Shown here in pieces: positions 29,265 to 51,943 of a stretch of 64,000 bases of DNA; position 1 is the stretch's first letter; each line of letters opens with the position of its first letter. Made by a program: the position numbers and the translations under genes. The notes under the pieces were generated by a model. The model did no database searches and was not told the DNA's origin. It saw nothing but the letters and a program-made list of their open reading frames with translations. The stretch comes from an uncultured Flavobacteriaceae bacterium (GTDB taxonomy: Bacteria > Bacteroidota > Bacteroidia > Flavobacteriales > Flavobacteriaceae). The stretch spans positions 62,001 through 126,000 of the forward strand of contig CALHGE010000012.1 of assembly GCA_938029725.1 (NCBI GenBank). Reading direction: 5' to 3'.

Positions 29265-30320
29265 ATGGAATTAAACGAAGAAAAATTACACGCCTTACTT
29301 GGCAAAGTAGTCACCGAAATGGGTGCGGCGGCAAACGGACCATTAGTAACCATCGGAGATAAATTAGGCCTCTACACTAGCCTATCAGAATCAGCGCCTT
29401 TATCCTCTAATGAATTAGCCACTAAAACCAATACTGCTGAACGATATGTTAGAGAATGGCTATCGGCACAAGCCGCATCTGGTTATGTGCAATATCATGC
29501 GGATACGAAGAAATTTTCTATGACTCCAGAACAAACTATGGTATTTGGTAATAGAAAAAGTCCCGTTTTTATGACCGGTGCTTTTTATGCAATATCATCG
29601 GTATACCACGATGAACCTAAAATAGAAGCGGCCTTTAAAACTGGGGAAGGTGTTTCTTGGGGAGACCATAATAATTGCTTGTTTTGTGGAACAGAAAAGT
29701 TTTTTAGTCCTTCCTACGAAGGAAATTTAATAAGCAGTTGGCTGCCGGCTATGGAAGGGCTAGTTGAGAAATTAGAGAAAGGAGCAAAAGTAGCGGATGT
29801 TGGTTGTGGACATGCTGCTTCTACGGTAATTATGGCCAAAGCATTTCCTAATTCTTCATTTATCGGATTTGATTTTCATGCGCCCTCCATAGCGCAAGCA
29901 AAAGAAAGAGCGAAAGACGCCGGTTTGACTAACATTTCTTTTGAAGTAGCAACTGCTAAAGATTTTCCAGGTACTGACTACGATTTCATTGCCTATTTTG
30001 ATTGCCTGCATGATATGGGTGATCCTGTTGGTGCATGTGCCCATACAAAAGCAGCTTTAAAAGCTGATGGCACCTGTATGATTGTTGAACCTTTTGCAAA
30101 AGATTCATTAGAAGAAAATTTAAACCCTGTAGGTAGAGCCTTTTACGCGTTTTCTACAATGCTCTGTACGCCTTGCTCATTAAACCAAGAAGTAGGACTT
30201 GCCTTAGGCGCCCAAGCTGGAGAAAAGAAACTAAAAGAGGTGATAAGCAAAGGCGGGTTTTCAAGATTCAAGAGAGCTATGGAAACTCCTTTTAATTTGA
30301 TTTTGGAAGCAAGACCATAA
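29265..30320 (+). CDS. SAM-dependent methyltransferase with N-terminal winged helix (Rv2258c-like)
   Basis: 351 residues. An N-terminal winged-helix part (about 1-95, LSSNELATKTNTAERYVREW) resembles the dimerisation region of class-I O-methyltransferases. The catalytic Rossmann domain (about 165-320) has SAM motif I as VADVGCGHAAST (about 177-188), FDFHAPSIAQAKERA and an acidic YFDCLHDMGDP. Cysteines cluster at NCLFCGTEKFF and LCTPCSLNQ. Substrate unknown. It is followed by a broken DUF4242 gene. Confidence 0.85.
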   Translation: MELNEEKLHALLGKVVTEMGAAANGPLVTIGDKLGLYTSLSESAPLSSNELATKTNTAERYVREWLSAQAASGYVQYHADTKKFSMTPEQTMVFGNRKSPVFMTGAFYAISSVYHDEPKIEAAFKTGEGVSWGDHNNCLFCGTEKFFSPSYEGNLISSWLPAMEGLVEKLEKGAKVADVGCGHAASTVIMAKAFPNSSFIGFDFHAPSIAQAKERAKDAGLTNISFEVATAKDFPGTDYDFIAYFDCLHDMGDPVGACAHTKAALKADGTCMIVEPFAKDSLEENLNPVGRAFYAFSTMLCTPCSLNQEVGLALGAQAGEKKLKEVISKGGFSRFKRAMETPFNLILEARP

Positions 30321-30824: not shown

Positions 30825-32510
30825 ATGAAACATTCAAAAATCACATTCCTCCTTTTGGGTATCTTTTTATGCCTCTCTGCATGCACGAACAAAATAGCAA
30901 AAACGAATTCCGCATTAGCTTCGATAGATTTTCTAAGAGGCGATCTTTTACTATGCGGTACTGGACAATTTGGAGAATTAAAATTCTCACTCTCTTGTAA
31001 CTATGAGACCAGAGAGGCATTTGACTTGGCAGTAGCATTATTACATTCCTTTCAATATGCTGAGGCTGAAAAAGCATTTGTAAAAGTTATTGATGCCGAT
31101 CCTAATTGCCCTATGGCATATTGGGGCGTTGCTATGAGCATTTATCATGCTGCTTGGTTTCCACCCAGCAAAGAAGACCTGATCAAAGGCGCAAAAGTAT
31201 TAGCTGTGGCAAAAGAATTAACTATGGATGAGAAGCAACGCGATTATATCAATGCAATTACTGCTTTTTATACGGACTGGAACAACGCAGACCATACCAC
31301 AAGAGCTATAAGGTTCGAAAAAAAGATGGAGCAGATATATCTTAAGTATCCAGAAGATATGGAAGCTGCAATTTTTTATACTCTGGCCTTGTTCTCTACT
31401 AGAGACAGGGTAGGAAAAGCGTATAAAAATGAACGAAAAGCCGGTAAAATTCTTGAATCTCTTTTAGCTTCGAATCCGAATCATCCTGGTATTGCACATT
31501 ATATCATTCATAATTATGACAATCCTGTTTTAGCCTCTCAAGGTTTAGAAACAGCTAGAAAATATGCAAAAATAGCACCCTCTTCTTCTCATGCCCAGCA
31601 CATGCCATCACATATTTTTACACGATTGGGTATATGGGAAGAATCTATACAATCTAATTTATTATCAGCAGAAAGCTCTAGATGCTATAGCGCAGCGGCA
31701 GCATTAAAAGGTTCTTATTTTGAAGAATTACATGCTACTGATTATTTGGTATATGCCTATCTACAAAAGGGAGATAATGCCAATGCAGAAAAACAGTATA
31801 CCCTAATAAAAGAGCTCAAATCTTTTTATCCTTCTAATATTACAGCCGCGGTATATCCCGTAACGGCGATACCAGCAAGATTAGCCCTTGAAAATAGAAA
31901 TTGGGAACAAGCAGCAAATCTAGAACTACAAAAAATAGACTTAGATTGGGAAAAATTTCCTTGGCAAAAAGCAATACATCACTTTGCTAAAGCTTTAGGA
32001 GCTGCACATACCAAGAATTTTACTTTAGTCGAAAAACAAATTGGAATTCTTAAAAAGCTACATCAAGACTTAATAGCACAAAACGACCGCACAAAGTCTA
32101 TTCAAATTAAGCTAGTTGAAATTCAGATTAAAACAGCACATGCATGGTTGACCTTTAGCCAGGGAGACAGAGAAAATGGCCTGCTTTTAATGCAAGAAGC
32201 TGTAGCGATTGAGGAAAAAACAAGCAAACACCCCGTCACCCCTGGCGATGTACTGCCGGCTATAGAATTATTAGGAGATATGCTTTTGGCATTGAACCAG
32301 CCAGAAGAAGCATTGGTTGTTTACGAGAAAAACCTAAAAAAACATCCGGAAAGATTCAATGGTGTTTATGGCGCAGCTATCGCCTCGAAAAAAGCAGGTA
32401 ATCAAGAAAAAGCAGCACAATACTTCACCCAACTTATAGCTTTAAGTGAAAACTCAAACAGCAATCGACCTGAAATTTTAGAGGCTAAGAAATTCATAAT
32501 ACAACCTTAA
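30825..32510 (+). CDS. TPR-repeat lipoprotein with HMPSH motif
   Basis: 561 residues. The lipobox is CLSAC, with C20. TPR-like helices run from about 65 to 555 (FDLAVALLHSFQYAEAEKAF, AYWGVAMS, VVYEKNLKKHPERFNGVYGA). In the middle are two His motifs, HYIIH (H225, H229) and HAQHMPSH (H256, H259, H263). These are conserved in the next gene as well. The four-His arrangement looks like a metal site or an active site, which is inference. It is the first gene of an operon with its paralogue (9-nt gap) and a SCO protein, so a role in copper or other metal handling at the envelope is a reasonable hypothesis. Confidence 0.75.
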   Translation: MKHSKITFLLLGIFLCLSACTNKIAKTNSALASIDFLRGDLLLCGTGQFGELKFSLSCNYETREAFDLAVALLHSFQYAEAEKAFVKVIDADPNCPMAYWGVAMSIYHAAWFPPSKEDLIKGAKVLAVAKELTMDEKQRDYINAITAFYTDWNNADHTTRAIRFEKKMEQIYLKYPEDMEAAIFYTLALFSTRDRVGKAYKNERKAGKILESLLASNPNHPGIAHYIIHNYDNPVLASQGLETARKYAKIAPSSSHAQHMPSHIFTRLGIWEESIQSNLLSAESSRCYSAAAALKGSYFEELHATDYLVYAYLQKGDNANAEKQYTLIKELKSFYPSNITAAVYPVTAIPARLALENRNWEQAANLELQKIDLDWEKFPWQKAIHHFAKALGAAHTKNFTLVEKQIGILKKLHQDLIAQNDRTKSIQIKLVEIQIKTAHAWLTFSQGDRENGLLLMQEAVAIEEKTSKHPVTPGDVLPAIELLGDMLLALNQPEEALVVYEKNLKKHPERFNGVYGAAIASKKAGNQEKAAQYFTQLIALSENSNSNRPEILEAKKFIIQP

Positions 32511-32519
32511 TACAAGCTT

Positions 32520-34250
32520 ATGAAAACAAAAATCAGTTTTGGTATATTGGCAGTATCCCTTTTAATGCTAGTCCATTTTATTAACCAAAATTCTATGGAA
32601 AGTAAAAGTAAGCATTATCAAAAAGCAGCCTTTAGTTTCACCACATGTACACCTGCAAAATTCATGTTGGAAGGGGTAGATACGACCCGACAAATTTCAC
32701 CGCTCTTTACCAATTTGGGCAACCTTCAGTTTCCTACCTCTTCAAAGATTGAACGAGCTCAGGCTTTTTTTAATCAGGGTGTGAAATTATCTTACGCCTT
32801 TAACCATGCAGAAGGCCATCGCTCTTTTATGGAGGCAGCGAGACTAGATCCGAATTCAGCGATGTCATATTGGGGGCAAGCTTTTGCATTAGGCCCAAAT
32901 ATCAATGACCCTATCCCCGATGAGGTGCGCAAGAACAAAATTAATGAGGCTATGAAAAATGCTCGACGACTAGCAGCTAAAGGGAGTAAAAAAGAGCAAG
33001 CACTTATTACAGCACTATCTGTGCGATATAGTGAAGATTTCACCAAGGATGTTGTGGCGTTGAACATGGCGTATATGAAAGCCATGGCTAAAGTGGCAAA
33101 ACAATATCCTAAAGATGCCAACATACAAATTCTATATGCTGCTTCTGTTATGAATACCGTTCCATGGAATTATTGGGATACCGATGGAAACCCATCTCCT
33201 AATATAAAAGAAGCAAAAGTTGCTCTTGAACGCGCGATGGAACTTGAACCAGAAAACCCAGGAGGACATCACTATTATATTCACATGGTGGAATTGCCTT
33301 ATCCTGATATGGGAGAAGCTAGTGCTGATAAATTGGCTTCGCTTATGCCTGGTGCCGGTCACATTGTGCACATGCCATCGCACATCTATATTCGCGTGGG
33401 CAGGTATTTAGACGCCGTTAAAGTAAATCAAACTGCTATTCTTGCCGATGAGGATTATATTTCACAATGTTTCGCGCAAGGCCTTTACCCACTAGCCTAC
33501 TATCCTCATAACATTCATTTTCTTTGGTCCTCTGCGAGCTTGCTTGGGGATAGCCAAATTGCGATTTCTGCTGCTAAGAAGACGGCGGAAAAAGTACCTA
33601 CAGGTGAATTAGTGACACTTCCCTTTTTACAAGATTTCGCCGCTACACCCTTATTGGCTTATACGAGGTTTGGTAAATGGAATGAAATTTTAACCATCCC
33701 TGCCCCTAACCCTGAAATTAAACATCTTAATCTAATACGCCATTATGCGAGAGGTATCGCTTTTATCAGAAAAGGGAATATAAAAGAGGCTCAGGAAGAA
33801 TTGAATGCTATAGCTACCTTGAAAAAAGATCCTGAATTGGAAACCTTGGTAGCAACTGCGAACAACGCCTCTATACATACAGCCAATATCGCCTATGAAT
33901 TAGTTGCCGGTGAATTGTCTGCTTTAAAAGGTGAGACTACAACAGCAATTGATCATCTTGAAAAAGCAGTAAAATTTGAAGATGCACTAACCTATACAGA
34001 ACCGGCTGCTTGGCACATTCCGACTCGCCAGAATTTAGGTGCGGTATTAATGAAGATTGGCGAGTATGAAGCCGCTGAAAAAATATTCCAAGAAGATTTA
34101 GATGTACTTCGTCAAAACGGATGGTCTTTAATGGGACTTCATAATAGTTTAAGGGCACAGGGTAAACTAAAAGAAGCCGAAGCCATTAAACAAGAATTTG
34201 AAAAGGCTTGGCAACATGCTGATATTGAACTAAATACTTCCGTACTATAA
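32520..34250 (+). CDS. TPR-repeat exported protein, paralogue of the preceding gene
   Basis: 576 residues with an N-terminal hydrophobic segment (about 5-22, SFGILAVSLLMLVHF) without a lipobox. It shares the architecture of the upstream gene: an N-terminal block with FNHAEGHRSFMEAARLDPNS, then HHYYIH (H250, H251, H255) and HIVHMPSHIYIRVGRY (H281, H284, H288), then C-terminal TPRs. The copies are well diverged overall but the His motifs are kept, which argues for a shared site. The stop overlaps the next start by one base (TAATG), so translation is coupled to the SCO gene. Confidence 0.78.
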   Translation: MKTKISFGILAVSLLMLVHFINQNSMESKSKHYQKAAFSFTTCTPAKFMLEGVDTTRQISPLFTNLGNLQFPTSSKIERAQAFFNQGVKLSYAFNHAEGHRSFMEAARLDPNSAMSYWGQAFALGPNINDPIPDEVRKNKINEAMKNARRLAAKGSKKEQALITALSVRYSEDFTKDVVALNMAYMKAMAKVAKQYPKDANIQILYAASVMNTVPWNYWDTDGNPSPNIKEAKVALERAMELEPENPGGHHYYIHMVELPYPDMGEASADKLASLMPGAGHIVHMPSHIYIRVGRYLDAVKVNQTAILADEDYISQCFAQGLYPLAYYPHNIHFLWSSASLLGDSQIAISAAKKTAEKVPTGELVTLPFLQDFAATPLLAYTRFGKWNEILTIPAPNPEIKHLNLIRHYARGIAFIRKGNIKEAQEELNAIATLKKDPELETLVATANNASIHTANIAYELVAGELSALKGETTTAIDHLEKAVKFEDALTYTEPAAWHIPTRQNLGAVLMKIGEYEAAEKIFQEDLDVLRQNGWSLMGLHNSLRAQGKLKEAEAIKQEFEKAWQHADIELNTSVL

Positions 34251-34906
34251 TGAAACAAACTAAAAAATATTGGAAATCGATTATTGCAATAGTCCTTTTG
34301 ATTGTAGGCACTATGGTACTTAGCTCTAGAATATTCAATACTAAATCAGAATTACCAGTATATAACCCATCCGATTTCCACCCTGAACTCGTTGCTATAG
34401 GTTTACAAAATGAAAAGAAAGGCCATACCGTTGCTGATTTTGAGCTGATCAACCAGAATGGTGAGAAAATCACTCAGAAAGAGTATGAAGACAAAATTTA
34501 TGTAACCGATTTCTTCTTTACACGTTGCCCAAGTATCTGCCCAATCATGTCAAATAATATGCAGAAATTACAAAATATTTTTCTTGATAATGATACAGTG
34601 AAATTCCTCTCGATATCGGTTACCCCAGAATTAGATAGTATTCCTATTTTGAAAGAGTATGCAAAAAAGCATGGAGCAATTAATAACAAATGGAACATTA
34701 GTACAGGAGAAAAAAAACATATTTACAACCTAGCTCGTAAAAGTTATTTTGCCGCAGTGAATGAAGGAGACGGCGGACTTCAAGATTTTATACATACCCC
34801 TAACTTTATATTGGTTGATAAGCAAAAGCAAATTAGAGGAGTATATGACGGTACTAAAACAGAGGAAATTGAACGTTTGGTTAGCGATATCAAAAATCTT
34901 TTATAG
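34250..34906 (+). CDS. SCO1/SenC-family protein (copper chaperone / thioredoxin fold)
   Basis: 218 residues with a membrane anchor (about 9-27). The SCO signature is TRCPSICPIM with C93 and C97 (CxxxC), and the distal ligand H183 is in FIHTPNF. These three residues bind copper in SCO proteins, which deliver Cu to cytochrome oxidase CuA or reduce its cysteines. Translation is coupled to the TPR gene. No cytochrome oxidase genes lie nearby in the window. Confidence 0.9.
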   Translation: MKQTKKYWKSIIAIVLLIVGTMVLSSRIFNTKSELPVYNPSDFHPELVAIGLQNEKKGHTVADFELINQNGEKITQKEYEDKIYVTDFFFTRCPSICPIMSNNMQKLQNIFLDNDTVKFLSISVTPELDSIPILKEYAKKHGAINNKWNISTGEKKHIYNLARKSYFAAVNEGDGGLQDFIHTPNFILVDKQKQIRGVYDGTKTEEIERLVSDIKNLL

Positions 34907-34946: not shown

Positions 34947-36227
34947 ATGTCTGATAACCGAAGAAAATTCTTAAAAACATTAGGTATAGGTACAGCTGGC
35001 GCATTAGCAACCCCCTCACAAATATGGGCACAAGCAGCAACACCTTTACAAGCTGCCTTGACCGATTTAAAAAGCACCGACACTTCTGAAGCCTTTTGGG
35101 AAACCGTACAATCGCAGTTTCGTTTTGCGGAAGGCCTAACGTATTTCAACAATGGTTCTCTTGGTGCTTGCCCAAAGCCCATTCGGGAAGCAACCCTAAA
35201 CTTTAGAGATATCCTAGACGATTTTCCTTCAAAATATATGTGGGGTGGTTGGAAAGATGAGATAGAAGAAGTACGTAAAAAAACAGCAGCGCTATTTTCA
35301 GTCTCCGAAGAGGAAATTGCTTTGATTCACAATACTACGGAAGGCATGAACCTTATTGCTAGTAGTATGGATTTAAATGCAGGCGATGAAATCATCTCAG
35401 CGGACCACGAACATACGAGCGCAGTAAATCCATGGAAATATTGGCAAGCTTCAAAAGGAATAAAATTAGTAAGCCCAATCCTTCCCATGCTACCCAAAAG
35501 TGTGGAGGAAATAGTAGACAGTTATAGAAAAGCGATAACTCCAAATACAAAGGTCATTTCGATCTGTCATTTGGTCAACACAAACGGCATGATACTTCCG
35601 CTAAAAGAGGTGACGAAAATGGCTCATGAGCAAGGTATTTTGGTTGCTATTGATGGCGCTCAAGCCACAGGCATGTTTACGATTGACCTGAAGGATATCG
35701 ATTGTGATTTTTATACGGTCAGTGCTCACAAATGGTTGTTTTCTCCAAAGGGAGTTGGTATTTTCTATGCCAAGCAAGAAAGTCAAAAGCATCTAAAACC
35801 ACTTATTGTAGCCCGTGGATATGAAGATACCAGTATCCGTAGATTAGAGAATTATAACACCAGAAACTTGCCTGAAGTATTAGGATTGGGTGCAGCACTT
35901 GATTTTAGAAATAGTGTAGGGGCACAAAAAATACAAGATCGCACGTATGACCTAAAGCACTATTTCAGAGATAAAATAAAAAACAATACCAAGTTGGTTC
36001 TCAAAACTCCAGCACTTGATTCACTTTCCGCAGGTATTCAAGTTGTCGAGATTTTAGGCAAAGATGTGAAAGAAGTGAAAAATCGCCTTTTTGATGACTA
36101 CGGAATCGACAGCCGCCCCATGAGCACGTTCGGTCTCAATGCAGTGCGCCTATCTTTTGCTATTTTCATTACCAAGAAACAGATTGATACATTGGTTGTT
36201 GCTTTAGAAACTATTGCCAATTCTTAG
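34947..36227 (+). CDS. Tat-exported class-V aminotransferase-fold PLP enzyme (CefD-like)
   Basis: 426 residues. The N-terminus is a Tat signal, NRRKFLKTLG with a cleavage region near QIWAQA. The class-V fold shows HNTTEGMNLI, the cofactor-binding AIDGAQ (D236) and the Schiff-base lysine K262 in SAHKWLFSPKGVG. Class-V members include isopenicillin-N epimerase, cysteine desulfurases and selenocysteine lyases. Export by Tat fits a protein that folds with PLP in the cytoplasm. Reaction and substrate are unknown. A paralogue lies at 61723-62991. It follows the TPR-TPR-SCO operon by 40 nt. Confidence 0.87.
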   Translation: MSDNRRKFLKTLGIGTAGALATPSQIWAQAATPLQAALTDLKSTDTSEAFWETVQSQFRFAEGLTYFNNGSLGACPKPIREATLNFRDILDDFPSKYMWGGWKDEIEEVRKKTAALFSVSEEEIALIHNTTEGMNLIASSMDLNAGDEIISADHEHTSAVNPWKYWQASKGIKLVSPILPMLPKSVEEIVDSYRKAITPNTKVISICHLVNTNGMILPLKEVTKMAHEQGILVAIDGAQATGMFTIDLKDIDCDFYTVSAHKWLFSPKGVGIFYAKQESQKHLKPLIVARGYEDTSIRRLENYNTRNLPEVLGLGAALDFRNSVGAQKIQDRTYDLKHYFRDKIKNNTKLVLKTPALDSLSAGIQVVEILGKDVKEVKNRLFDDYGIDSRPMSTFGLNAVRLSFAIFITKKQIDTLVVALETIANS

Positions 36228-36803
36228 ATGCTTGACAAGCAGAAACAAAAAACACCAACTCAGTTAGAACTCGTTTTTGTTTTAAATAGGTCATCACGGC
36301 TTTATAAGCTGTCTTGTTTTTAATGGGTCCTTGAGCGCTTACTTTGAAACTTCGCAAAAAAATCAAAGCAGATATAGGCTTGACCATTTTAACCGCTTTA
36401 CTGCTATTCTCTGTATTCATAAAAAAATTAGCTTTTATGGTCTGTTTTATCAGATTTTTAAAGATTTAGCCCGCATCATATTCGAAAACTTTTATTTGGT
36501 CTTAAAAATTTCATCTTTTTTAAAAAATAGAGGAGCAGCTTAGTTGCTACCGCATGTAATGTAAATGGTTGCAGGGTTAATCGCTTTAATTATCACATTC
36601 ATTCTGACTGGCTTCAATTCTAGGCAGTTTCCCTTTTGTTCTTCCTTCAGCGATTACACCTTTTTACATTAAGTATTGGTACTTGAAAACCAAAGGTGAG
36701 ATTAGGTAAGCCAAAGCTTCCTAAAAATTTATTTGATTCGTTTATTTTGTTTCTAGGTATTCCCATAAAATTTGTAATTTCAGTAACTAAAAATCCAACT
36801 CAA
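36228..36803. other. 576-nt intergenic region
   Basis: No convincing gene. Two overlapping open stretches of about 70 codons on opposite strands (36211-36420 minus and 36331-36543 plus) have no signal peptide, motif or ribosome-binding context. A possible -7 region of the next gene is near AAATTTG at 36763. Confidence 0.45.
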
Positions 36804-38996
36804 ATGAGAACTCAAATTTTCACACTCCTATTATGCTTTGCACTAGGTTTTGTAAACGCACAAGAATCTATTCTCGGTTTCACTTCGGATAATGCAAAAA
36901 AACAAACAACCTTAGAAGCTGCATTTGAGTCGAAACTAACTGCTAATAATCTTGATAAATGGATGCAACTTATGGCTGCCGAACCACATTGGGTAGGTAC
37001 CGAATACGGGGAGAAAAATGCAAAGTGGATTCAAAAGCAATTCAAATCTTGGGGCTACGATACTAAAATTGAAACCTATCATGTTTTGTTTCCTTATCCT
37101 AAAGTGCGCGTACTAGAACTTACAGGGCCGACCACTTATAAAGCCAAATTAACTGCTGTACCGGTTGAAGGAGATAAATATACCGCGCAAGGTGATGCCT
37201 TGCTACCTAGTTACAATGCCTTCTCAAGGGATGGTGATGTAGAAGCAGAATTGGTTTTCGTGAACTACGGAATTCCTAGTGATTACGAGGTACTTGATAA
37301 ATTAGGAATTGATGTAAAAGGAAAAATCGTCATTGCCAAATACCAAGGTTCATGGCGAGGAATCAAGCCAAAATTAGCAGCGGAAAATGGAGCTATAGGG
37401 TGTATTATATATTCAGACCCTGCGGATGATGGTTATGGTCGTGGAGATGTCTATCCTAAAGGAGCATTTAAAAATAAAACAGGCGTACAACGAGGCTCTG
37501 TAATGGATATGCCAACCTACCCTGGTGATGTGCTTACACCTGGCTATGGCGCTACCAAAGATGCCAAACGCTTAGATAGAAAAGATGCTCCAACAATTAC
37601 AAAAATTCCGGTTCTACCAATTTCCTATGAAGATGCACTGCCTTTACTGGCAGCCCTAGATGGGGTGGTTGCACCCCAATCATGGCGAGGTGGCTTACCG
37701 ATCACTTATCATATCGGACCTGGCCCTGCAAAAGTACATTTGAAGTTAGAATTTGATTGGAAATTAGTACCTGCCCACAATGTAATAGCAACATTAAAAG
37801 GAACCGATTTTCCTGATCAATGGGTAATGCGCGGTAACCATCATGATGCATGGGTACACGGTGCAAATGATCCTATCAGCGGAATGGTAGCTTTAATGGA
37901 AGAAGCCCGTGCCGTTGGTGAACTGGCAAAAAAAGGTCAAAAGCCAAAACGCACCATAGTATATTGTGCTTGGGATGCTGAAGAACCCGGACTCATTGGT
38001 TCGACCGAATGGGTTGAAGATCATAAAACTGAATTACAACAAAAAGTTGTGGCCTATATTAATACAGACGGAAATGGACGTGGTTTCTTAGGAGTTGGTG
38101 GCTCGCATAGTTTGCAAGCCATGGTTGGCGAAGTAGCAGCGGTGGTTACCGATCCTCAAAGAGGGGTTTCTATTAAAGAAAGGAGAAGCGCTGTTGACAT
38201 GGTGAATGGTGGTGATGGCGCATTCAAATTATCTGCGCTAGGTTCGGGCTCAGATTATACCCCATTTATTCAGCACGCAGGCATTGCAGCCCTAAATTTA
38301 GGGTTTGGGGGTGAAAACGCTGGAGGTGAATACCATACTATTTATGATACTTATCCGCATTACAAAAGGTTTAAAGACCCTGAATTTGCCTATGGGGTGG
38401 CACTAGCCAATACGGCGGGCAGGATCACACTGCGATTGGCAAATGCAGATATGTTGCCTTTTGACTTTCAGCAGTGGCACAAAACCGTTTTAGGTTACCT
38501 TGATGAGATTATGATGCAAACCAATACGATGCGTACAGCTGTTGAAAAGCATAATACAATGGTTGAAAAAAACAGTTTCGAATTGGCAGCCGATCCTAAA
38601 AAACCGTTCTTAAAACCAAAGAAAAAAAAGGCAATACCTTACTTTGATTTCACACCCATTCAAAATGCTTTAGCATCCATAAAAACAACTACTGAAGTAC
38701 TTTCAAAAGTTGATATTTCAAAACTTTCAATAGAAAGACGCCATAGCCTGAATAAGCGATTAATGCAGGCAGAACATGTACTTACCTCAGAAGAGGGTTT
38801 ACCACGTAGATCTTGGTATAAACACCAAATTTACGCTCCAGGATTCTATACAGGTTATGGTGTAAAAACCTTACCGGGTGTTCGTGAAGCTGTCGAAGAA
38901 AAGAATTGGAAAGAGGCCCAAGAACAAATCAGCAAACTTGCCAATACGCTTAAAAACTTCGACAAACATCTTCAAGAAATGGCTGCGATGTTGTAA
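36804..38996 (+). CDS. Secreted M28-family metallopeptidase (glutamate carboxypeptidase II-like)
   Basis: The ATG at 36804 gives a signal peptide (MRTQIFTLLLCFALGFVNAQ) and 730 residues, so I prefer it to an upstream in-frame ATG at 36696. The architecture is PA-domain insertion, M28 catalytic domain and a C-terminal TFR-dimer-like domain, as in PSMA/NAALADase. Zinc ligands are in GNHHDAWVHGANDP, CAWDAEEPGLIGSTEW, NTDG and GGEYHTIYDTY. It probably removes C-terminal residues from extracytoplasmic peptides. It is 47 nt from a DUF2007 gene on the same strand. Confidence 0.9.
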   Translation: MRTQIFTLLLCFALGFVNAQESILGFTSDNAKKQTTLEAAFESKLTANNLDKWMQLMAAEPHWVGTEYGEKNAKWIQKQFKSWGYDTKIETYHVLFPYPKVRVLELTGPTTYKAKLTAVPVEGDKYTAQGDALLPSYNAFSRDGDVEAELVFVNYGIPSDYEVLDKLGIDVKGKIVIAKYQGSWRGIKPKLAAENGAIGCIIYSDPADDGYGRGDVYPKGAFKNKTGVQRGSVMDMPTYPGDVLTPGYGATKDAKRLDRKDAPTITKIPVLPISYEDALPLLAALDGVVAPQSWRGGLPITYHIGPGPAKVHLKLEFDWKLVPAHNVIATLKGTDFPDQWVMRGNHHDAWVHGANDPISGMVALMEEARAVGELAKKGQKPKRTIVYCAWDAEEPGLIGSTEWVEDHKTELQQKVVAYINTDGNGRGFLGVGGSHSLQAMVGEVAAVVTDPQRGVSIKERRSAVDMVNGGDGAFKLSALGSGSDYTPFIQHAGIAALNLGFGGENAGGEYHTIYDTYPHYKRFKDPEFAYGVALANTAGRITLRLANADMLPFDFQQWHKTVLGYLDEIMMQTNTMRTAVEKHNTMVEKNSFELAADPKKPFLKPKKKKAIPYFDFTPIQNALASIKTTTEVLSKVDISKLSIERRHSLNKRLMQAEHVLTSEEGLPRRSWYKHQIYAPGFYTGYGVKTLPGVREAVEEKNWKEAQEQISKLANTLKNFDKHLQEMAAML

Positions 38997-39256: not shown

Positions 39257-39289
39257 GCAAAGGCTAAACCATACTTGATAATCAATTTT

Positions 39290-42200
39290 ATGAAATGTTT
39301 TTCTGCACGCCATAATGCAATATGGCTTATTGCTAGTGCTTTACTGCTTGCAGCTTGTACTACAAAATCAAACAAAGCTCAAGAAACGCCACTTACGGTT
39401 TATGAAGATTCCGTTTTGGGCTTTGAAAGAGCCACAAGAGCACGTGAAAGTATTGTTGTGAAAATGGCACATGGCTTGGAGTTAAGCCTATGGGCGTCAG
39501 ACTCGCTAGCTCCAGACCCCATTGCGATGGATATAGACACAAAAGGGCGCATTTATCTAACACGTACGAATCGCCAAAAAAATTCAGAGTTTGACATCAG
39601 AGGACATCAAGATTGGATGACAGCTTCCATAGCATTCCAATCGGTAGAAGATCGACGCGCTTTTATACGCAAAACCTTTGCTCCAGAGGGTAGCGAAGAC
39701 AACAACTGGTTGTCTGATTTAAATGAAGATGGAAGTCACGATTGGAGAGACCTAAAGGTAGAAAAAGATGAAATCTGGATGCTTGAAGACACCAACAAGG
39801 ATGGTATGGCCGATGTCTCCAAACGGATTCTAGAAGATTTCAATACGGAGATTACAGATGTAGCAGGCGCATTATTAGTTCGTGATACTGATGTATTTGT
39901 AGGGATAGCACCTGATATGTGGCGCCTTACTGATAGTAATGATGATGGTGTATTAGATGAGAAAACTTCTATTGCCCACGGGTTTGCTGTTCATATTGGT
40001 TTTGGCGGTCATGGTATGTCTGGCGCCATACAAGGGCCAGATGGAAAAATATATTGGGGTATTGGTGACATTGGAGTGAATATCACGACGGTAGATGGAA
40101 TCAATCACAACTATCCAAATCAAGGCGTTATTGTAAGGTCTAATCCTGATGGTAGTAATTTTGAGGTTTTCTCTAGAGGTCATAGAAACACTCATGAATT
40201 TGTATTTGATGCCTATGGCAATATGATTTCCTCTGATAATGATGGTGACCATGGTGGCGAAAGCGAACGCTTAGTTCATATTGTGGAAGGTTCTGATTCG
40301 GGATGGCGAACCAACTGGCAATTTGGAAAATACACCGACCCTAAAAACAACAATTATAAAGTTTGGATGGATGAAGAATTATTCAAACCAAGATGGGAAG
40401 GACAGGCGGCTTATATCATTCCTCCTATTCAAAATTTTCATAATGGCCCAACAGGGATGGTCTACAATCCAGGGACAGCCTTGGGAAAAGACTGGTTGAA
40501 CAGATTTTTTATAGTAGAGTTTGTAGGTGACCCCAGTAGATCTCATATCTGGTCGTTCGATTTGAAACCTAAAGGCGCTTCTTTTCAATTGAACACAGAT
40601 ATTGATATGCTTAGTGGTGTGCTAGCAACCGGAATAAAATTCGGACCTGATGGTGCCCTTTATCTCGCCGACTGGGTCACAGGCTGGGGCACTAAAAACT
40701 ATGGAAGGGTTTGGAAATTAGACGTCAGCTCCAATAAAAATAATTTAGAAAAAGAAAGAAAAGAAACAGAACGCCTGATGACTTTAGATTATGCGGATCA
40801 ATCGAATGACGCGCTTGTACAACTCCTATCTTATTCAGATATGCGCATTCGACAAAAAGCGCAATTCACCTTAGCAAAAAGCACCTTTTGGGGCTATCGA
40901 AAGTTTAAATCGGTTTTAGACGAAAGTAAGCATCAGTTTGCCAAAATCCATTCCATTTGGGGCATCGGACAAATAGCCGCTGACGATGTCGCAAAAGCGC
41001 AACCTTTGGTGGCATTATTATCTGATAAAGATCCTGAAATAGTTGCTCAAGCCTTAAAGGTTTTGGGTGCTGTAAAATATACCAAAGCGGCTTCCAAATA
41101 TATCGCTTTACTTCAACATGAAAACGACCGTGTAAAATTCTTTGCTGCACAGGCCTTGGGACGCACAAAACATGAGGCTGGGGTTCAAGCCTTACTGGCT
41201 ATGATTGCTAAAAATGCAGATGCTGATGTGTACCTAAGACATGCAGGTGTTTTAGCACTTTCACGTATTGGTAAACAAGAATCGATGCTCGCTTTAACAC
41301 AGAGTAAAAATAGAAGCTTACGTATTGCTGCTGTTTTAGTTTTACGAAGAATGCAAGATCCATTGGTCGCTGAATTCTTAACCGATACTGATGAATATAT
41401 TGTAACAGAAGCAGCCAGAGCCATCAACGATGATTGGTCTATTGAGTCTGCACTACCAGCTTTAGCCAAAGTTTTAGAAGAAGATCGATTTACATCTGAA
41501 GCCTTATTACGTAGAAGTATAAATGCAGCGCTAAGAGTGGGTGGAGAAAAAGAGATGGACAATCTGATCGCTTTTGCTAAACGCACCAATGTTTCAAGTG
41601 AATTACGCGGAGAGGCTATAGCCGCGCTGGGTACTTGGGGCTCGCCTTCTGTTCTTGATCGCGTAGATGGCCGACTTCGAGGAGAAGTTACCAGAGATCC
41701 TAGTGTAGTGAAAAGTAAAATAGAGAAAGATCTTTCGTTACTGTTACACGATGCAAGCACCGATGCCGAAATTTTGGTTGGGGTTGCAGAAACTATAAAA
41801 AACTTAGGTATCAATACCCAAGACAAACAAATACTTAGCCTATTAGCAAGCCATAGCTCTCCAGAAGTACGTTCTGCAATGCTGAGCACATTGGGTAGCC
41901 TTAAGTCAACATTAATAGATAAGGGCATGTCTATTGGCATGCGCGATCAAAATCAAAAAGTGAAGCAGGCTGCTATCGGATTATTAGCACAAATAAATAT
42001 TTCGAAAGTAGAACTCTCAAAAATTATTGAACCTATTTTTAGAAGTGGATCTGTTGGAGAACAACAAAAAATATTAGGGGTTCTAGGTGAACTTCCTCTA
42101 GCTAAAAGTGAAACTGCACTTGAGCGATTGATTAAAGAGGGCAAACGAGGGCGACTTAATGAAAGTGTAATTCTTGATTTAATAGAAGCAACAGAAGCGA

Positions 42201-42727
42201 CAAAATCAGAACGTCTTATTCTTGCCTTGGGTAATCTTAAAATTAGTGGCCCTACGATTGATGCGTATAAAGAAACACTATATGGTGGAAGATGGTGGGA
42301 AGGAAGAGATGTTTTTAACAACAATTCAGCAGCCCAATGCGTTCGTTGTCATGCGGTTAAAGGTGCCGGTGGCGAAGTAGGACCAGCATTAGATAATATT
42401 GCAAATATTTTAACAAGAGCAGAAATTCTCGAAGCACTTATTGAACCAAGTAAAAGATTAGCACCTGGTTATGGCACTATTACGGTAAGCCTCAAGGATG
42501 GTCAAGTTGTAAGTGGAATTCTAGAACATGAAACCGACAAAGAACTAATCATTAGAACTTCGGATGCAGAACCTATAGAGATTGGGATTTCAAGAATTAA
42601 AACACGTAAAAATAGTATATCGGCCATGCCAGCTGCAGGAAAATTGATTAGCAAAAGAGAACTACGCGATTTGGTAGAATACCTCTCTAGTTTGAAGACT
42701 ATTGAACCTTTAATTTTAGATGATTAG
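39290..42727 (+). CDS. Lipoprotein c-type cytochrome with beta-propeller and HEAT repeats (PVC-type heme-binding family)
   Basis: 1145 residues from the ATG at 39290; an earlier TTG at 39275 is less likely. The lipobox is LLLAAC (C23). A propeller-like domain (about 55-490, GPDGKIYWGIGDIG, GPDGALYLADWVTG) holds three Ca-loop-like DxNxDGxxD motifs at about 143-220. HEAT-type helices fill about 500-960. A cytochrome-c domain at the C-terminus has CVRCH (C1017, C1020, H1021) and a likely Met ligand in SAMPAAGKL. Such proteins are abundant in Planctomycetes and occur in Bacteroidota; a redox or sugar-dehydrogenase-associated role is suspected but not shown. Confidence 0.88.
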   Translation: MKCFSARHNAIWLIASALLLAACTTKSNKAQETPLTVYEDSVLGFERATRARESIVVKMAHGLELSLWASDSLAPDPIAMDIDTKGRIYLTRTNRQKNSEFDIRGHQDWMTASIAFQSVEDRRAFIRKTFAPEGSEDNNWLSDLNEDGSHDWRDLKVEKDEIWMLEDTNKDGMADVSKRILEDFNTEITDVAGALLVRDTDVFVGIAPDMWRLTDSNDDGVLDEKTSIAHGFAVHIGFGGHGMSGAIQGPDGKIYWGIGDIGVNITTVDGINHNYPNQGVIVRSNPDGSNFEVFSRGHRNTHEFVFDAYGNMISSDNDGDHGGESERLVHIVEGSDSGWRTNWQFGKYTDPKNNNYKVWMDEELFKPRWEGQAAYIIPPIQNFHNGPTGMVYNPGTALGKDWLNRFFIVEFVGDPSRSHIWSFDLKPKGASFQLNTDIDMLSGVLATGIKFGPDGALYLADWVTGWGTKNYGRVWKLDVSSNKNNLEKERKETERLMTLDYADQSNDALVQLLSYSDMRIRQKAQFTLAKSTFWGYRKFKSVLDESKHQFAKIHSIWGIGQIAADDVAKAQPLVALLSDKDPEIVAQALKVLGAVKYTKAASKYIALLQHENDRVKFFAAQALGRTKHEAGVQALLAMIAKNADADVYLRHAGVLALSRIGKQESMLALTQSKNRSLRIAAVLVLRRMQDPLVAEFLTDTDEYIVTEAARAINDDWSIESALPALAKVLEEDRFTSEALLRRSINAALRVGGEKEMDNLIAFAKRTNVSSELRGEAIAALGTWGSPSVLDRVDGRLRGEVTRDPSVVKSKIEKDLSLLLHDASTDAEILVGVAETIKNLGINTQDKQILSLLASHSSPEVRSAMLSTLGSLKSTLIDKGMSIGMRDQNQKVKQAAIGLLAQINISKVELSKIIEPIFRSGSVGEQQKILGVLGELPLAKSETALERLIKEGKRGRLNESVILDLIEATEATKSERLILALGNLKISGPTIDAYKETLYGGRWWEGRDVFNNNSAAQCVRCHAVKGAGGEVGPALDNIANILTRAEILEALIEPSKRLAPGYGTITVSLKDGQVVSGILEHETDKELIIRTSDAEPIEIGISRIKTRKNSISAMPAAGKLISKRELRDLVEYLSSLKTIEPLILDD

Positions 42728-47182: not shown

Positions 47183-50100
47183 TTATTTAATAGACAGTAT
47201 TTTCTTAACGATCTTTTCTTTACCAGTTCTTAATATTAAGAAGTACATATCTGGTGAAAGATTGGATACATCTAGATGCACGTTGTTAGAACCTGCGTTG
47301 ACATTCATGCCTTTCTTAGCAATTACACACTTGCCATTGACATCAAATATCTCTACTTCAAGCTGAGCATCATACGGAATATCCACTCTTAAATTCAAGT
47401 CGTTCTTAAATGTCATTGGATAGGCAGTAACCGCAGTTTTTAAAACCTTACCTGCATCTTCTGATTTCTTACAAGTAACGGCATGTACAATCACATAAAT
47501 TCCACCGTTAATATGACTTACATCAACTGGGTCAAAAGAATAGGTAGTGTTACTATCAAGCTCGCCCGAATTAAAAGGATACTGACCAGGAGCAACGGTT
47601 TCTTTATTTCCTTTTACAGGATATGGCACCCCGCCAATATATAACTGTGCTTCTGTCATCACAAAACCATTTAATAGTTCAATTGTGACAAGTACTTCCT
47701 CACCATCATACGCAACCTGTACATTACCAGATTTTTCTCCTTTGCTTAAATCGCATTGACCAGCACCAGAATATAAATCTAAGATGTAATCACCTTCAAC
47801 AGCGAAATAATTAGTCCATCCCCATCTGTTAAATCCATCGTCAATGAAGCAAGTATTACCACCCTCAAATCCATCATCAAATCGAGCAAATGCAGTTTCA
47901 CATCCTGAAATAGGGGCGTCACACTCAAGTCCTTCGTCTATTTGACCATCTCCATTATTATCTAAACCGTCACATTCTTCGACATCATCACAGTCTGGAG
48001 TACCATCATTATCAGAATCAAAACTTTCGTCTATTTGACCATCTCCATTATTATCAATACCATCACAGATCTCAGTACAATCAAGGCCTTCGTCTATTTG
48101 ACCATCTCCATTATTATCCATACCATCACAGATCTCAGTACAATCAAGGCCTTCGTCTATTTGACCATCTCCATTATTATCAATACCATCACAGATCTCA
48201 GTACAATCAAGGCCTTCGTCAATTTGACCATCTCCATTGTTATCCATACCATCACAGATCTCAGTACAATCAAGGCCTTCGTCTATTTGACCATCTCCAT
48301 TGTTATCCATACCATCACAGATCTCAGCACAGTCAAGGCCTTCGTCTATTTGACCATCTCCATTGTTATCCATACCATCACAGATCTCAGTACAATTAAG
48401 GCCTTCGTCTATTTGACCATCTCCATTGTTATCAATACCATCACATTCTTCCATATCATCACAATCGGGAGTACCATCATTATCTGAATCAAAACCTTCA
48501 TCAATTTGACCGTCGCCATTGTTGTCAAGACCATCACATTCTTCTTGATCGACACAATCAGCTATTCCATCACCATCGGTATCTGCGAAACCTTCATCGA
48601 TTTGACCGTCTCCATTGTTATCCACACCATCACATTCTTCTTGATCGACACAATCAGCTATTCCATCACCATCGGTATCTGCGAAACCTTCATCAATATC
48701 ACCATCACCATCATTGTCAAGACCATCACATTCCTCTTGATCTACACAATCAGCAGTACCATCATTATCGGTGTCAGAAAACCCTTCATCGACACTTCCA
48801 TCTCCATCATTATCAAGACCGTCACATTCTTCTACGTCCGTACAATCTGGAGTACCATCATTATCTGCATCAAATCTATCATCACAAGAATCTAAGCAAT
48901 CAGCAATTCCGTCGTTATCGGTATCATCAAAACCTTCATCGATTTGATCGTCTCCATCATTGTCAATTCCATCACAAATTTCAATATTTCCACAACTTAG
49001 ACCTTCATCAATATATCCATCACCGTCATTATCAAGGCCATCGCACTCTTCTTCATCATTACAATCAGAGATACCATCCATATCAGAATCAAAACCTTCA
49101 TCAACTAACAAATCACCATCATTGTCTAGTCCGTCACACTCTTCTATATCGGCACAGTCTGGAGTACCGTCGTTATCTGAATCAAAGCCTTCATCAATTT
49201 GACCGTCTCCATTATTGTCAATACCATCACAAATCTCTTCATCAAAATCACATCCTGTAGCATCGCTACAATTCAATTCAAAATTAAAATCAATTTCGTA
49301 TTTCTTTGGGTTATTTTCTGTTCCCATGAAACCCCATCCTGCTATGCCGTCCGCGCTTGAATCTAATCCGTGCAACATACCACCTTGACCAACTATTACT
49401 CCTAAATGTGGTGTTGTAGGATCGTTTGGATCTGGTTTCTGACTTACAATAAAAGATCCTTCTTCTAAACAATCACCACCAGTAGTTGTAATTGTACTTA
49501 CTGAATTATCAATTACATAATAATTAAGCGTGGTAGGATCAGGACTTGTACAACCCATTTCTTTAAAGGTTCCATCTTGAAGTTGCCAACCGGCCCAGTC
49601 AGTTTTACCTATTAGTTTTATATAAAGTTCTGCGGTACAACTACCTAAAGACGTTGTTCCTTGAATTAAAGCCGTACCGTCATTAAACTCTGTAAAGGAG
49701 AGGTTACTTGTATTTGACCCGAAGAAATTTGATCCTCCTGGAGACGCATTGCTTCCAAACCAATAGAAATCATACCTAATGTTTGAATCTCCACAATATG
49801 TTGCTGGTATTGCTTCGCAAGTCTTAACAATAATATCTTCAGCGACTGTAATAGTTACAACAGCCTCATCACTACCACAATTGGCTGAACTTACTGTATA
49901 GGTAATACGGTAATCACCTGGTGTTAAACCAGTAGTATCAAAATTTGAACCTGTCAGAATACCTTGTCCGCTTGGGTTTGTAAAAGTACCGCCTGATACC
50001 GTTACGAAATCTGATACATCTACAATTGTACTTTCACATACTGCAGTTGTGCCATCTGCCCCAGCACTTGGTGCTTCCACAATAGTTACCGTCAAGGTTG

Positions 50101-51943
50101 TCGTTGTAGCACATTCTACATCTGCAGGGCTAAACGTATACACCCCAGCGGCCTCTGACCAGGTTCCTGTAATTCCATTTGTTGAAGTCAAAGGTAAACT
50201 CGATACATCAATACTTTCATCAGAACAAATCTCAACAGCACCAAATAGCGGAGTTACTGCATCCGTTACATTAACGGTTAAGGTTGCTGTAGTTGCACAT
50301 TCTGCATCTGCAGGGCTAAACGTATACACCCCAGCAGCCTCTGACCATGTTCCTGTAATTCCATTTGTTGAAGTCAAGGGTAAACTCGATACATCAATAC
50401 TTTCATCAGAACAAATCTCAACAGCATCAAACAACGGAGTAACTGCATCCGTTACATTAACGGTTAAGGTTGCTGTAGTTGCACATTCTGCATCTGCAGG
50501 GCTAAACGTGTACACCCCAGCGGCCTCTGACCAGGTTCCTGTAATTCCATTTGTTGAAGTCAAGGGTAAACTCGATACATCAATACTTTCATCAGAACAG
50601 ATCTCAACAGCATCAAATAGCGGAGTTACTGCATCCGTTACATTAACCGTTAAGGTTGCTGTAGTTGCACATTCTGCCGCGTCTGGTGTAAAAGTAAATA
50701 CATCATTCGCCTCTGCCCAGGTTCCACTAATTCCATTCGTGGAGCTTGTCGGTAAATCTGCTAGGACAACCATTTCATCAGAACAGATCTCAACAGCATC
50801 AAATAGCGGAGTTACCGCTGCCTCTATCGTTATTAGAATTTCAGAAAAAGGTCTACAATTCGGATCGGTTAATTCTGGGTCATCTGTATCTAAAATTGCG
50901 TACACATAATAAGTGCCCGCTGTTGCAAAATTAATTCCGGTATTGGAAGTTGCGGTTCCCCCAGTAGGAGCAACTGCTGTTCCAATTTCGGTTCCACCAA
51001 TATAAGGGTCTGATTGAGCAGAGGCAAACCATACAAATTCGATATTTATAGTATCGATATCAGTATCTACTGATAGGGTCTGCCCTTGATCATCGATACA
51101 AGTGCCAAAATCTACTGATTCATTTGTTAATGTTGGACAAGTAAAACAAATAGGAGCTACTACAGTGGTGGTAGTGGTGCAGCCTTCTCCATCCGTAATT
51201 ACAACTGTATAGCTTTCACCTTGCGCTACGTTTGATAAATCTTCAGAGGTAGAAGAAAAACCATTTGGTCCAAGCCATGAAAAGTTAAAAGGACTAGTTC
51301 CTCCTTTTACAACTAAATCTATGTTTGCTTCATTATTACTATCACATTCAGCGGAAGCAATAGCGTTTAAAGGTGGTGTAATTACAATTTCATCAACTGT
51401 TCCACATTTTGGTGCAATTTCTTTACAATCGTGATTACCACAGGTGCTATTAGGTGCTGCATCTGTCCATGACAAGACCATATCCTTTAAAGTAAGTTCT
51501 TCACCGCATGTAAAAGTAATACTACCATAGCTTAGGGTAGTTATTTGATTTGGTGGAATTTCACCATTACATCTCGAAATTGGGCACAAAACACTGGTGC
51601 CATCTGGCGCAACCACCTCCAAATTACCAAAAATAGCAAAGGAAGTTCTGGTTGAACCTGTTGTATTATTTATACTTAAAAATAACTCTGCAGTAATGGT
51701 TTCGCCTTCATCGCAAGAATTACAGGTATCACCAATATCTAAAAATGCACTGACCAATTCCAAATCTTTTGAGGTACAATCACCACTGGTTATAAAACAA
51801 TCAGGTTCATGCACTATAGGATTTAAAATATCTAAAGGATCAGGCCCCGGACATGTTTGCCCACTCACAGAAAAAGTAGTTAAGCCAATAAAAAGAAATA
51901 AAAGAAAAAGTTTTTTGGAATAAAAAAGCGTAGAAATCCCCAT
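47183..51943 (-). CDS. Giant repeat-rich T9SS cargo protein with MopE-like and Ig-like repeats
   Basis: 1586 residues. A signal peptide (LFLLFLFIGLTTFSVSGQ) is followed by a Cys-rich N-terminal domain and a SprB-like repeat (about 190-265, ANIDLVVKGGTSPFNFSW). Four about 62-residue repeats cover about 377-622, each with VEICSDESIDVSSLP. The middle (about 896-1342) carries 16 MopE-type metal-binding motifs (CDGxDNNGDGQIDE) interleaved with TSP3-like DSDNDGTPDC units, so it should bind many Ca or other metal ions. The C-terminus has a type A T9SS sorting domain (IFDVNGKCVIAKKG, LSPDMYFLILRTG). Such proteins are exported by the T9SS to the surface or medium. Function is probably adhesive or structural. 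Confidence 0.9.
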   Translation of the reverse strand: MGISTLFYSKKLFLLFLFIGLTTFSVSGQTCPGPDPLDILNPIVHEPDCFITSGDCTSKDLELVSAFLDIGDTCNSCDEGETITAELFLSINNTTGSTRTSFAIFGNLEVVAPDGTSVLCPISRCNGEIPPNQITTLSYGSITFTCGEELTLKDMVLSWTDAAPNSTCGNHDCKEIAPKCGTVDEIVITPPLNAIASAECDSNNEANIDLVVKGGTSPFNFSWLGPNGFSSTSEDLSNVAQGESYTVVITDGEGCTTTTTVVAPICFTCPTLTNESVDFGTCIDDQGQTLSVDTDIDTINIEFVWFASAQSDPYIGGTEIGTAVAPTGGTATSNTGINFATAGTYYVYAILDTDDPELTDPNCRPFSEILITIEAAVTPLFDAVEICSDEMVVLADLPTSSTNGISGTWAEANDVFTFTPDAAECATTATLTVNVTDAVTPLFDAVEICSDESIDVSSLPLTSTNGITGTWSEAAGVYTFSPADAECATTATLTVNVTDAVTPLFDAVEICSDESIDVSSLPLTSTNGITGTWSEAAGVYTFSPADAECATTATLTVNVTDAVTPLFGAVEICSDESIDVSSLPLTSTNGITGTWSEAAGVYTFSPADVECATTTTLTVTIVEAPSAGADGTTAVCESTIVDVSDFVTVSGGTFTNPSGQGILTGSNFDTTGLTPGDYRITYTVSSANCGSDEAVVTITVAEDIIVKTCEAIPATYCGDSNIRYDFYWFGSNASPGGSNFFGSNTSNLSFTEFNDGTALIQGTTSLGSCTAELYIKLIGKTDWAGWQLQDGTFKEMGCTSPDPTTLNYYVIDNSVSTITTTGGDCLEEGSFIVSQKPDPNDPTTPHLGVIVGQGGMLHGLDSSADGIAGWGFMGTENNPKKYEIDFNFELNCSDATGCDFDEEICDGIDNNGDGQIDEGFDSDNDGTPDCADIEECDGLDNDGDLLVDEGFDSDMDGISDCNDEEECDGLDNDGDGYIDEGLSCGNIEICDGIDNDGDDQIDEGFDDTDNDGIADCLDSCDDRFDADNDGTPDCTDVEECDGLDNDGDGSVDEGFSDTDNDGTADCVDQEECDGLDNDGDGDIDEGFADTDGDGIADCVDQEECDGVDNNGDGQIDEGFADTDGDGIADCVDQEECDGLDNNGDGQIDEGFDSDNDGTPDCDDMEECDGIDNNGDGQIDEGLNCTEICDGMDNNGDGQIDEGLDCAEICDGMDNNGDGQIDEGLDCTEICDGMDNNGDGQIDEGLDCTEICDGIDNNGDGQIDEGLDCTEICDGMDNNGDGQIDEGLDCTEICDGIDNNGDGQIDESFDSDNDGTPDCDDVEECDGLDNNGDGQIDEGLECDAPISGCETAFARFDDGFEGGNTCFIDDGFNRWGWTNYFAVEGDYILDLYSGAGQCDLSKGEKSGNVQVAYDGEEVLVTIELLNGFVMTEAQLYIGGVPYPVKGNKETVAPGQYPFNSGELDSNTTYSFDPVDVSHINGGIYVIVHAVTCKKSEDAGKVLKTAVTAYPMTFKNDLNLRVDIPYDAQLEVEIFDVNGKCVIAKKGMNVNAGSNNVHLDVSNLSPDMYFLILRTGKEKIVKKILSIK
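47921..49258 (-). repeat. MopE/TSP3-type repeat region, 16 units
   Basis: In-gene array of CDGxDN-type motifs. Spacing varies where TSP3-like linkers are inserted (units 1-9 and 16) and is strictly 63 nt in units 10-15. Confidence 0.9.
48011..48388 (-). repeat. Six consecutive 63-bp near-identical direct repeats
   Basis: The unit encodes EICDGMDNNGDGQIDEGLDC plus Thr. Copies differ at only a few bases (Met/Ile codon, GCA versus GTA), consistent with recent tandem duplication or gene conversion. Confidence 0.92.
50080..50815 (-). repeat. Four tandem 186-bp repeats encoding Ig-like domains
   Basis: Spacing of the conserved block near GTTACTGCATCCGTTACATT is 186 nt (about 50262, 50448, 50634). 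Three copies are nearly identical in DNA; the one nearest 50815 is diverged. Confidence 0.88.

Follow-up and report, generated by a model that had tools for sequence, protein, structure and literature searches.

The window analysed here, 64,000 nucleotides from an uncultured Flavobacteriaceae bacterium (contig CALHGE010000012.1, positions 62,001 to 126,000), encodes two tandem tetratricopeptide repeat (TPR) proteins, TPR-A and TPR-B, followed directly by a SCO-type copper chaperone. Both proteins belong to a large, uncharacterised family in which a multi-His signature is invariant and which has no Pfam or NCBIfam model of its own, and we lean, on balance, towards the view that this signature forms a metal site on a TPR solenoid and that the family is a metal-binding one. 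TPR arrays are commonly seen as scaffolds for binding other proteins; if this view is true, the family, present in 46 of 149 Flavobacteriaceae genomes and, in the phylum around an Acidobacteria locus, in 27 of 60, would constitute a sizeable blind spot in metalloprotein annotation, and the linked SCO protein provides a concrete tie to copper.

A His/Met/acid signature is kept across a divergent family

An initial annotation of the locus, made from the sequence, had noted HxxxH and HxxHMPSH motifs 26-30 residues apart in both TPR proteins, and the motifs are present with the right spacing (H225/H229 and H256/H259/H263 in TPR-A, H251/H255 and H281/H284/H288 in TPR-B). The four-His site proposed there proved too small, as the two motifs hold five invariant His and are accompanied by a near-invariant sixth His, a Met and an Asp or Glu. 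The resulting signature, H...H..[DE]...H..HM..H, comprises five His, one Met and one acid, and it was kept in 154 of 155 distinct homologues found by homology, after 21 genes identical to motif-selected ones had been taken out (120/120 from two homology searches, 8/8 further paralogues and 26/27 from a phylum search centred on Acidobacteria). The sole exception (L320) is an open reading frame (ORF) of 397 aa that retains the second half of the signature as HxxHMPTH. Inclusion required at least 60 bits to the family profile and at least 300 aa (at least 400 aa for the 125-row alignment below), and because motif-bearing sequences were used to build this profile, it could miss very distant kin that lack the motif.

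An alignment of 16 sequences across the diversity of the Flavobacteriaceae revealed six invariant His, corresponding to H251, H255, H281, H284, H288 and H333 of TPR-B. In the alignment of 125 rows (121 distinct once genes identical to motif-selected ones are removed), H251, H255, H281, H284, M285 and H288 were each conserved in 125/125 rows, the column of TPR-B residue 258 held Glu in 80 and Asp in 45, and the sixth His (H333 in TPR-B, H303 in TPR-A) was His in 122/125. Twelve columns were conserved at 97% or more; six of them are His, against 19 His among the 576 residues of TPR-B (hypergeometric p 4.5e-7), and none is Lys or Arg. The median identity of random pairs among the 125 rows was 29%. 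The His pattern is not due to chance.

The His are predicted to line the groove of a TPR solenoid

AlphaFold2 models of TPR-A and TPR-B are confident and all-helical (pTM 0.89 and 0.88, respectively; pLDDT in Table 1), and by these models both proteins are TPR solenoids. TPR repeat models matched above their cut-offs in TPR-A (PF13428, 36.7 against 23.5; PF07719, 33.9 against 27) and in TPR-B (PF07719, 45.2 against 27; PF14559, 30.6 against 25), and scans of Pfam and NCBIfam gave TPR repeats and sub-threshold matches only, with no model spanning either protein whole. Generic TPR superhelices were among the matches listed in fold searches with TPR-B, for example TTC7B (5dse_C; Z 18.4, rmsd 6.5 over 377). 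In the TPR-B model, H251 and H255 lie in helix 247-257, H281 and H284 in helix 280-284, H288 in helix 286-293 and H333 in helix 322-342, and the helices of the TPR-A counterparts are listed in Table 1.

When the repeat register of TPR-B was set from the Pro-32 and Gly-15 landmarks, the invariant His all fell at position 2, 5 or 9 of helix A, across three successive repeats and within at most 60 degrees of one helix face. These helix A positions face the groove and its ligand in TPR proteins, and equal positions of neighbouring repeats lie about 10 Å apart. At this spacing the His of two neighbouring helices could share one metal and those of three repeats could not, which leaves two sites, or one two-metal site across the repeats, as possible arrangements. 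The register suggests that the His converge. The proposal that such a His cluster is not usually assigned to TPR proteins is supported by both the conservation and the register.

The two proteins were predicted to be exported, as TPR-A has a lipobox and TPR-B, like the SCO protein, has an N-terminal hydrophobic segment (read from the sequence). A simple heuristic detected a hydrophobic segment or lipobox in 122 of 125 members found by homology; the remaining three are truncated at the end of the stretch that holds them.

A distinct group of SCO genes is linked to subfamilies A and B

TPR-A and TPR-B are separated by 9 bases, and TPR-B overlaps the SCO gene by one base at 34250, as had been described. 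Their similarity (28% identity over 259 columns, E 1e-26 by BLASTP) bears out their description as paralogues, and a search of the genome (about 92% complete) with TPR-B found these two copies. The downstream gene encodes a SCO1/SenC protein by its PF02630 match, CxxxC motif and distal His; the assignment as SCO and the CPSIC cysteines stand as first annotated, but the distal His is H182 rather than H183.

Within the Flavobacteriaceae, 47 genomes matched the family, and 46 were retained after one with a 60-aa generic TPR stretch had been dropped. Members were sorted from the neighbourhoods read into subfamilies A, B (at least 56% identity to TPR-B), C and D, with two fragments excluded from locus counts (G080, 81 aa; G075, 60 aa). 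Of the 27 A/B loci in the 149 genomes, 14 had a SCO gene directly downstream of the TPR gene or genes, comprising all eight loci with A, three of which also carry B, and six of the 19 with B alone. In a further B locus, a SCO from a different clade lies two genes upstream, and an A-B pair without SCO (L064) occurs among the motif-selected loci. Since 148 of the 149 genomes hold 1 to 7 SCO matches each, a chance SCO neighbour is calculated for about one in a thousand genes.

In a tree of 42 SCO proteins, 19 adjacent SCOs and one near-copy clustered together (support 96/93), the near-copy coming from a genome that has a TPR-SCO pair; the upstream SCO and 21 other SCOs of eight genomes, whose lower-scoring SCO matches the tree leaves out, fell outside this cluster under midpoint rooting. 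All 19 full-length adjacent SCOs carry CxxxC and the distal His, and the TPR-SCO pair is flanked by differing genes in many genomes. At G099:C3:16096-16404 (L372), a near-copy of about 100 codons of the A-linked SCO lies elsewhere on the same contig. Our data demonstrate that the SCO link is real and specific and that it is limited to subfamilies A and B in Flavobacteriaceae. The coupling that had been proposed holds for A and B, with a SCO group of their own, but it characterises just these two subfamilies of a single bacterial family. Relatives without a nearby SCO retain the His site equally well, and thus SCO is not what maintains it.

Wider distribution and metal genes

Scanning by motif gave at least 586 relatives, of which 80, from many phyla, were retained, and a homology search around an Acidobacteria locus matched the 27 genomes of that phylum mentioned above (centre genome included). 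No SCO was found within the stretches read at these wide loci with a profile built from flavobacterial SCOs, which distant SCOs in other phyla could escape. Relatives were also borne on plasmids, where they retain the motif.

Copper or heavy-metal genes flank the family gene in three lineages beyond A and B. Three of the five metal matches near family genes are P-type ATPases with HMA and HMBD domains, a set that we take to be of the copper type, in three genomes of one Bacteroidota family; in these genomes a divergent AraC-type regulator sits between the ATPase and the TPR gene. On Acinetobacter plasmids (21 records, treated as one lineage), a CDF transporter gene lies 40 bases upstream of the family gene, and ArsR/SmtB, P-type ATPase, cueR, HMA and DUF305 genes lie downstream. 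An Ilyobacter plasmid carries two multicopper oxidase-domain genes, a cupredoxin and an HMA protein near the family gene. A Rhodococcus plasmid, with ArsR/SmtB genes and an iron ABC transporter nearby, was counted as ambiguous.

The Acinetobacter metal islands occupy 2584-21214 of L326 and 356-8295 of L327, the latter on a 19.7 kb plasmid shared with blaOXA-58. In Acinetobacter gerneri (L380, 5001-7970), the family gene looks interrupted, its match falling into three pieces with two short CDS annotated.

A metal site as the favoured interpretation

In the model that we favour, the concave face of the TPR solenoid would carry a metal site composed of five His, the Met, the Asp or Glu and the near-invariant sixth His, with its ligands supplied by helix A of three successive repeats. 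In this model the A and B proteins are exported and most likely bind copper, which the dedicated SCO encoded directly downstream would load or hold in the right redox state, and they would act as a copper-dependent enzyme or as the copper-binding partner of one. Copper is the likeliest metal in A and B because of the linked SCO. Metal dependence and an enzymatic function, as first suggested for this module, are plausible, and enzyme, store and copper-delivery partner are candidate roles.

Several observations weigh against this interpretation. Thirteen of the 19 B-alone loci have no SCO directly downstream, and no SCO was found within three genes in the C (0/16) or D (0/11) loci (0/27 in total). 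The operon-like neighbours of the C, D and wide members, 108 proteins in all, held 128 Pfam families; the 25 that occurred most often showed no metal theme and did not include PF02630, and the commonest occurred three times. Fifteen metal-related query proteins revealed no enrichment of metal genes, with matches to 5 of 939 genes within three places of the family gene and to 7 of 938 farther away. Annotated plasmid neighbourhoods were read for 13 genera, and ten had no annotated copper or heavy-metal gene nearby, the others being two with metal islands and the ambiguous one; plasmid records of Streptomyces, Persicobacter and S. meliloti 1021, which carry no gene table, are outside this count. 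A PDB sequence search for solved homologues returned generic TPR proteins at weak scores and nothing more specific. Finally, in the plasmid members of Acinetobacter, Ruegeria, Shinella and Rhodococcus the protein begins with the TPR domain and no signal is seen by eye, so that the family is not strictly extracytoplasmic, and such cytosolic-looking members sit badly with one shared copper function. The extracytoplasmic location first assigned to the module holds for TPR-A and TPR-B but not for the family as a whole, and the neighbour survey suggested with it bears out SCO in A and B and metal genes in three further lineages, but no general metal neighbourhood.

The His-lined groove might instead bind a non-metal ligand, such as a peptide C-terminus, an acidic or phosphorylated ligand or heme, with the His serving as recognition residues like the Lys and Asn of the carboxylate clamp. 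This explanation gains from the location of the His at the classical ligand positions of TPR helix A and from the persistence of the site although most loci read have neither SCO nor a recognised metal gene. However, near-absolute invariance of five His, a Met and an acid at such low median identity would, in our judgement, be unusual for protein-protein recognition, and the absence of Lys and Arg from the twelve most conserved columns does not fit recognition of this kind; we regard a non-metal ligand as rather doubtful.

The TPR proteins might also be assembly factors that dock either the SCO or its client, a cytochrome oxidase or c-type cytochrome, much like the periplasmic TPR chaperones of cytochrome c maturation. 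The SCO linkage is tight, and a gene for a DUF7133-HEAT-cytochrome c protein lies near A/B in the window and in L032, L038, L052, L055 and L064. This cytochrome gene, however, was found near close relatives only, the other tested SCOs of the same genomes group elsewhere, and the family extends far beyond the SCO linkage, which makes this role distinctly unlikely. That these are ordinary TPR proteins, with structural His and a SCO pair that is a lineage habit of no functional meaning, would agree with the restriction of SCO linkage to Flavobacteriaceae and near kin and with an ABC-transporter neighbour that turned out to be positional in the same survey (see below), but it is very improbable given that the pair persists amid different flanking genes in many genomes and that structural conservation is not expected to choose His at the groove positions of three repeats.

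Features of the locus and its surroundings

Table 1. Positions in the window of the TPR-SCO genes, their conserved residues and the following gene
Feature	Position	Strand	Description	Basis
TPR-A	30825..32510	+	561 aa, lipoprotein-like, subfamily A	ORF, TPR Pfam matches, AlphaFold2 pLDDT 90.9, lipobox LSAC
TPR-A motif 1, HYIIH (H225, H229)	31497..31511	+	helix 221-230	
TPR-A motif 2, HAQHMPSH (H256, H259, M260, H263)	31590..31613	+	helix 255-268	
TPR-A sixth His, H303	31731..31733	+	helix 298-314	
TPR-B	32520..34250	+	576 aa, N-terminal anchor or signal, subfamily B	ORF, TPR Pfam matches, AlphaFold2 pLDDT 91.4
TPR-B motif 1, HYYIHMVE (H251, H255, E258)	33270..33293	+	TPR helix A positions 5, 9, 12	
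TPR-B motif 2, HIVHMPSH (H281, H284, M285, H288)	33360..33383	+	next repeat, helix A positions 2, 5, 6, 9	
TPR-B H330 (81/125) and H333 (122/125)	33507..33518	+	third repeat, helix A positions 2, 5	
SCO-type copper chaperone	34250..34906	+	218 aa	PF02630 91 bits (cut-off 22.8), tree
SCO CPSIC (C93, C97)	34526..34540	+		read from sequence
SCO His182	34793..34795	+		read from sequence
Pyridoxal phosphate (PLP) enzyme	34947..36227	+	TAT-like leader; starts 40 bases after SCO	

The PLP enzyme gene possibly shares the SCO transcript and is outside the conserved TPR-SCO core. A terminator-like site lies downstream of it at 36296-36312, and such sites are no commoner there than in shuffles of the region. 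By NCBIfam the PLP enzyme is PvdN-like, below the cut-off, and in L052 a homologue lies upstream of A. The window holds a second PLP protein at 61723-62991; both are class V aminotransferase-like and have export-like leaders.

An ABC transporter of the FecCD/Peripla_BP_2 type upstream of B was considered as a hint of iron, heme or B12 and was rejected as positional. A family member adjoins the FecCD-type gene in 4 of 30 loci, and RmuC directly follows in 20 of the other 26, which places the TPR module within a conserved locus. The FecCD-type gene followed by rmuC is a conserved locus of Flavobacteriaceae (L235-L264), with TPR-A/B modules between the two genes in some genomes.

Other genes recur near family members. 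An M28 peptidase gene (36696-38996) also occurs near A/B in L038, L052, L055, L059 and L064, and the DUF7133-HEAT-cytochrome c gene discussed above lies at 39275-42727; in close relatives these two genes are found on either side of A/B. The methyltransferase at 29265-30320, with an Rv2258c-like winged helix, has relatives within three genes of members in L032, L077 and L207, and other methyltransferases occur near family members in L202 and L204. In L206 (4909-5580) and L208, the gene immediately after the family member encodes a DUF3108-like protein, with a Pfam basis in L206 only. Farther along the window, 47183-51943 encodes a surface-like protein of 1586 aa with many DGxGxIDEG repeats, and the long opposite-strand ORFs at 48035-48487 and 50049-50909 look like mirror artefacts of these repeats.

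Comparison with known systems

TPR-A and TPR-B share with the TPR solenoid proteins of the Pfam TPR clan their TPR Pfam matches, their helical solenoid models and, for TPR-B, generic TPR structural neighbours; unlike them, they have no matching whole-protein Pfam or NCBIfam model. To our knowledge, an invariant His/Met/acid set of this kind does not belong to the known features of TPR proteins.

A partial counterpart exists in TTC38/StaR-like proteins. A stretch of human TTC38 matched 37 plasmid records, and all nine bacterial relatives of this stretch carry HxxxHxxE followed about 30 residues on by HxxWH. By our own reading of the register, HxxxHxxE occupies helix A positions 5, 9 and 12, as in TPR-B. 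These proteins are without HxxHMPSH, whereas TPR-A and TPR-B have HxxxHxx[DE] with HxxHMPSH replacing HxxWH. Comparison of the TTC38 and family profiles gave 97% (E 1e-10, in a comparison that had no unrelated TPR family as control) and aligned the HxxxH of TTC38 to the HMPSH of TPR-B, one repeat off from our reading of the register. Common descent beyond TPR is not established because single members score near other TPR proteins (best 62% versus 51%), and we treat the relation as a lead, not as membership. Two Skermanella plasmids carry a TTC38/StaR-like gene 34 bases ahead of a family member (L324, 4572-7752; L379, 5572-8737).

It may be that the family represents a class of TPR-based metalloenzymes that has so far gone unrecognised, in which three repeats build a centre of one or two metals, copper in A and B and possibly another metal in cytosolic members, and that TTC38-type proteins, human TTC38 included, are distant analogues with a reduced His/Glu site; as a whole, we consider this broad proposal unlikely. 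PMC5780481 concerns TTC38 in a metabolite association. Among search listings of the open-access literature, we recognised no paper tying tetratricopeptide proteins to SenC/Sco1/copper operons or to a His metal site, and the HMPSH string and TTC38 with histidine and metal appeared only in unrelated papers.

The downstream protein is itself one of the SCO1/SenC copper chaperones, with their CxxxC and distal His, and the SCO of the window clusters with other A/B-linked SCOs, apart from other tested SCOs of the same genomes. Type 3 copper sites comprise six His, PHM-type copper sites five His plus Met, and hemerythrin-type di-iron sites five His plus acids; on folds unrelated to the TPR solenoid, these known metal centres have ligand lists that resemble the signature of TPR-A and TPR-B.

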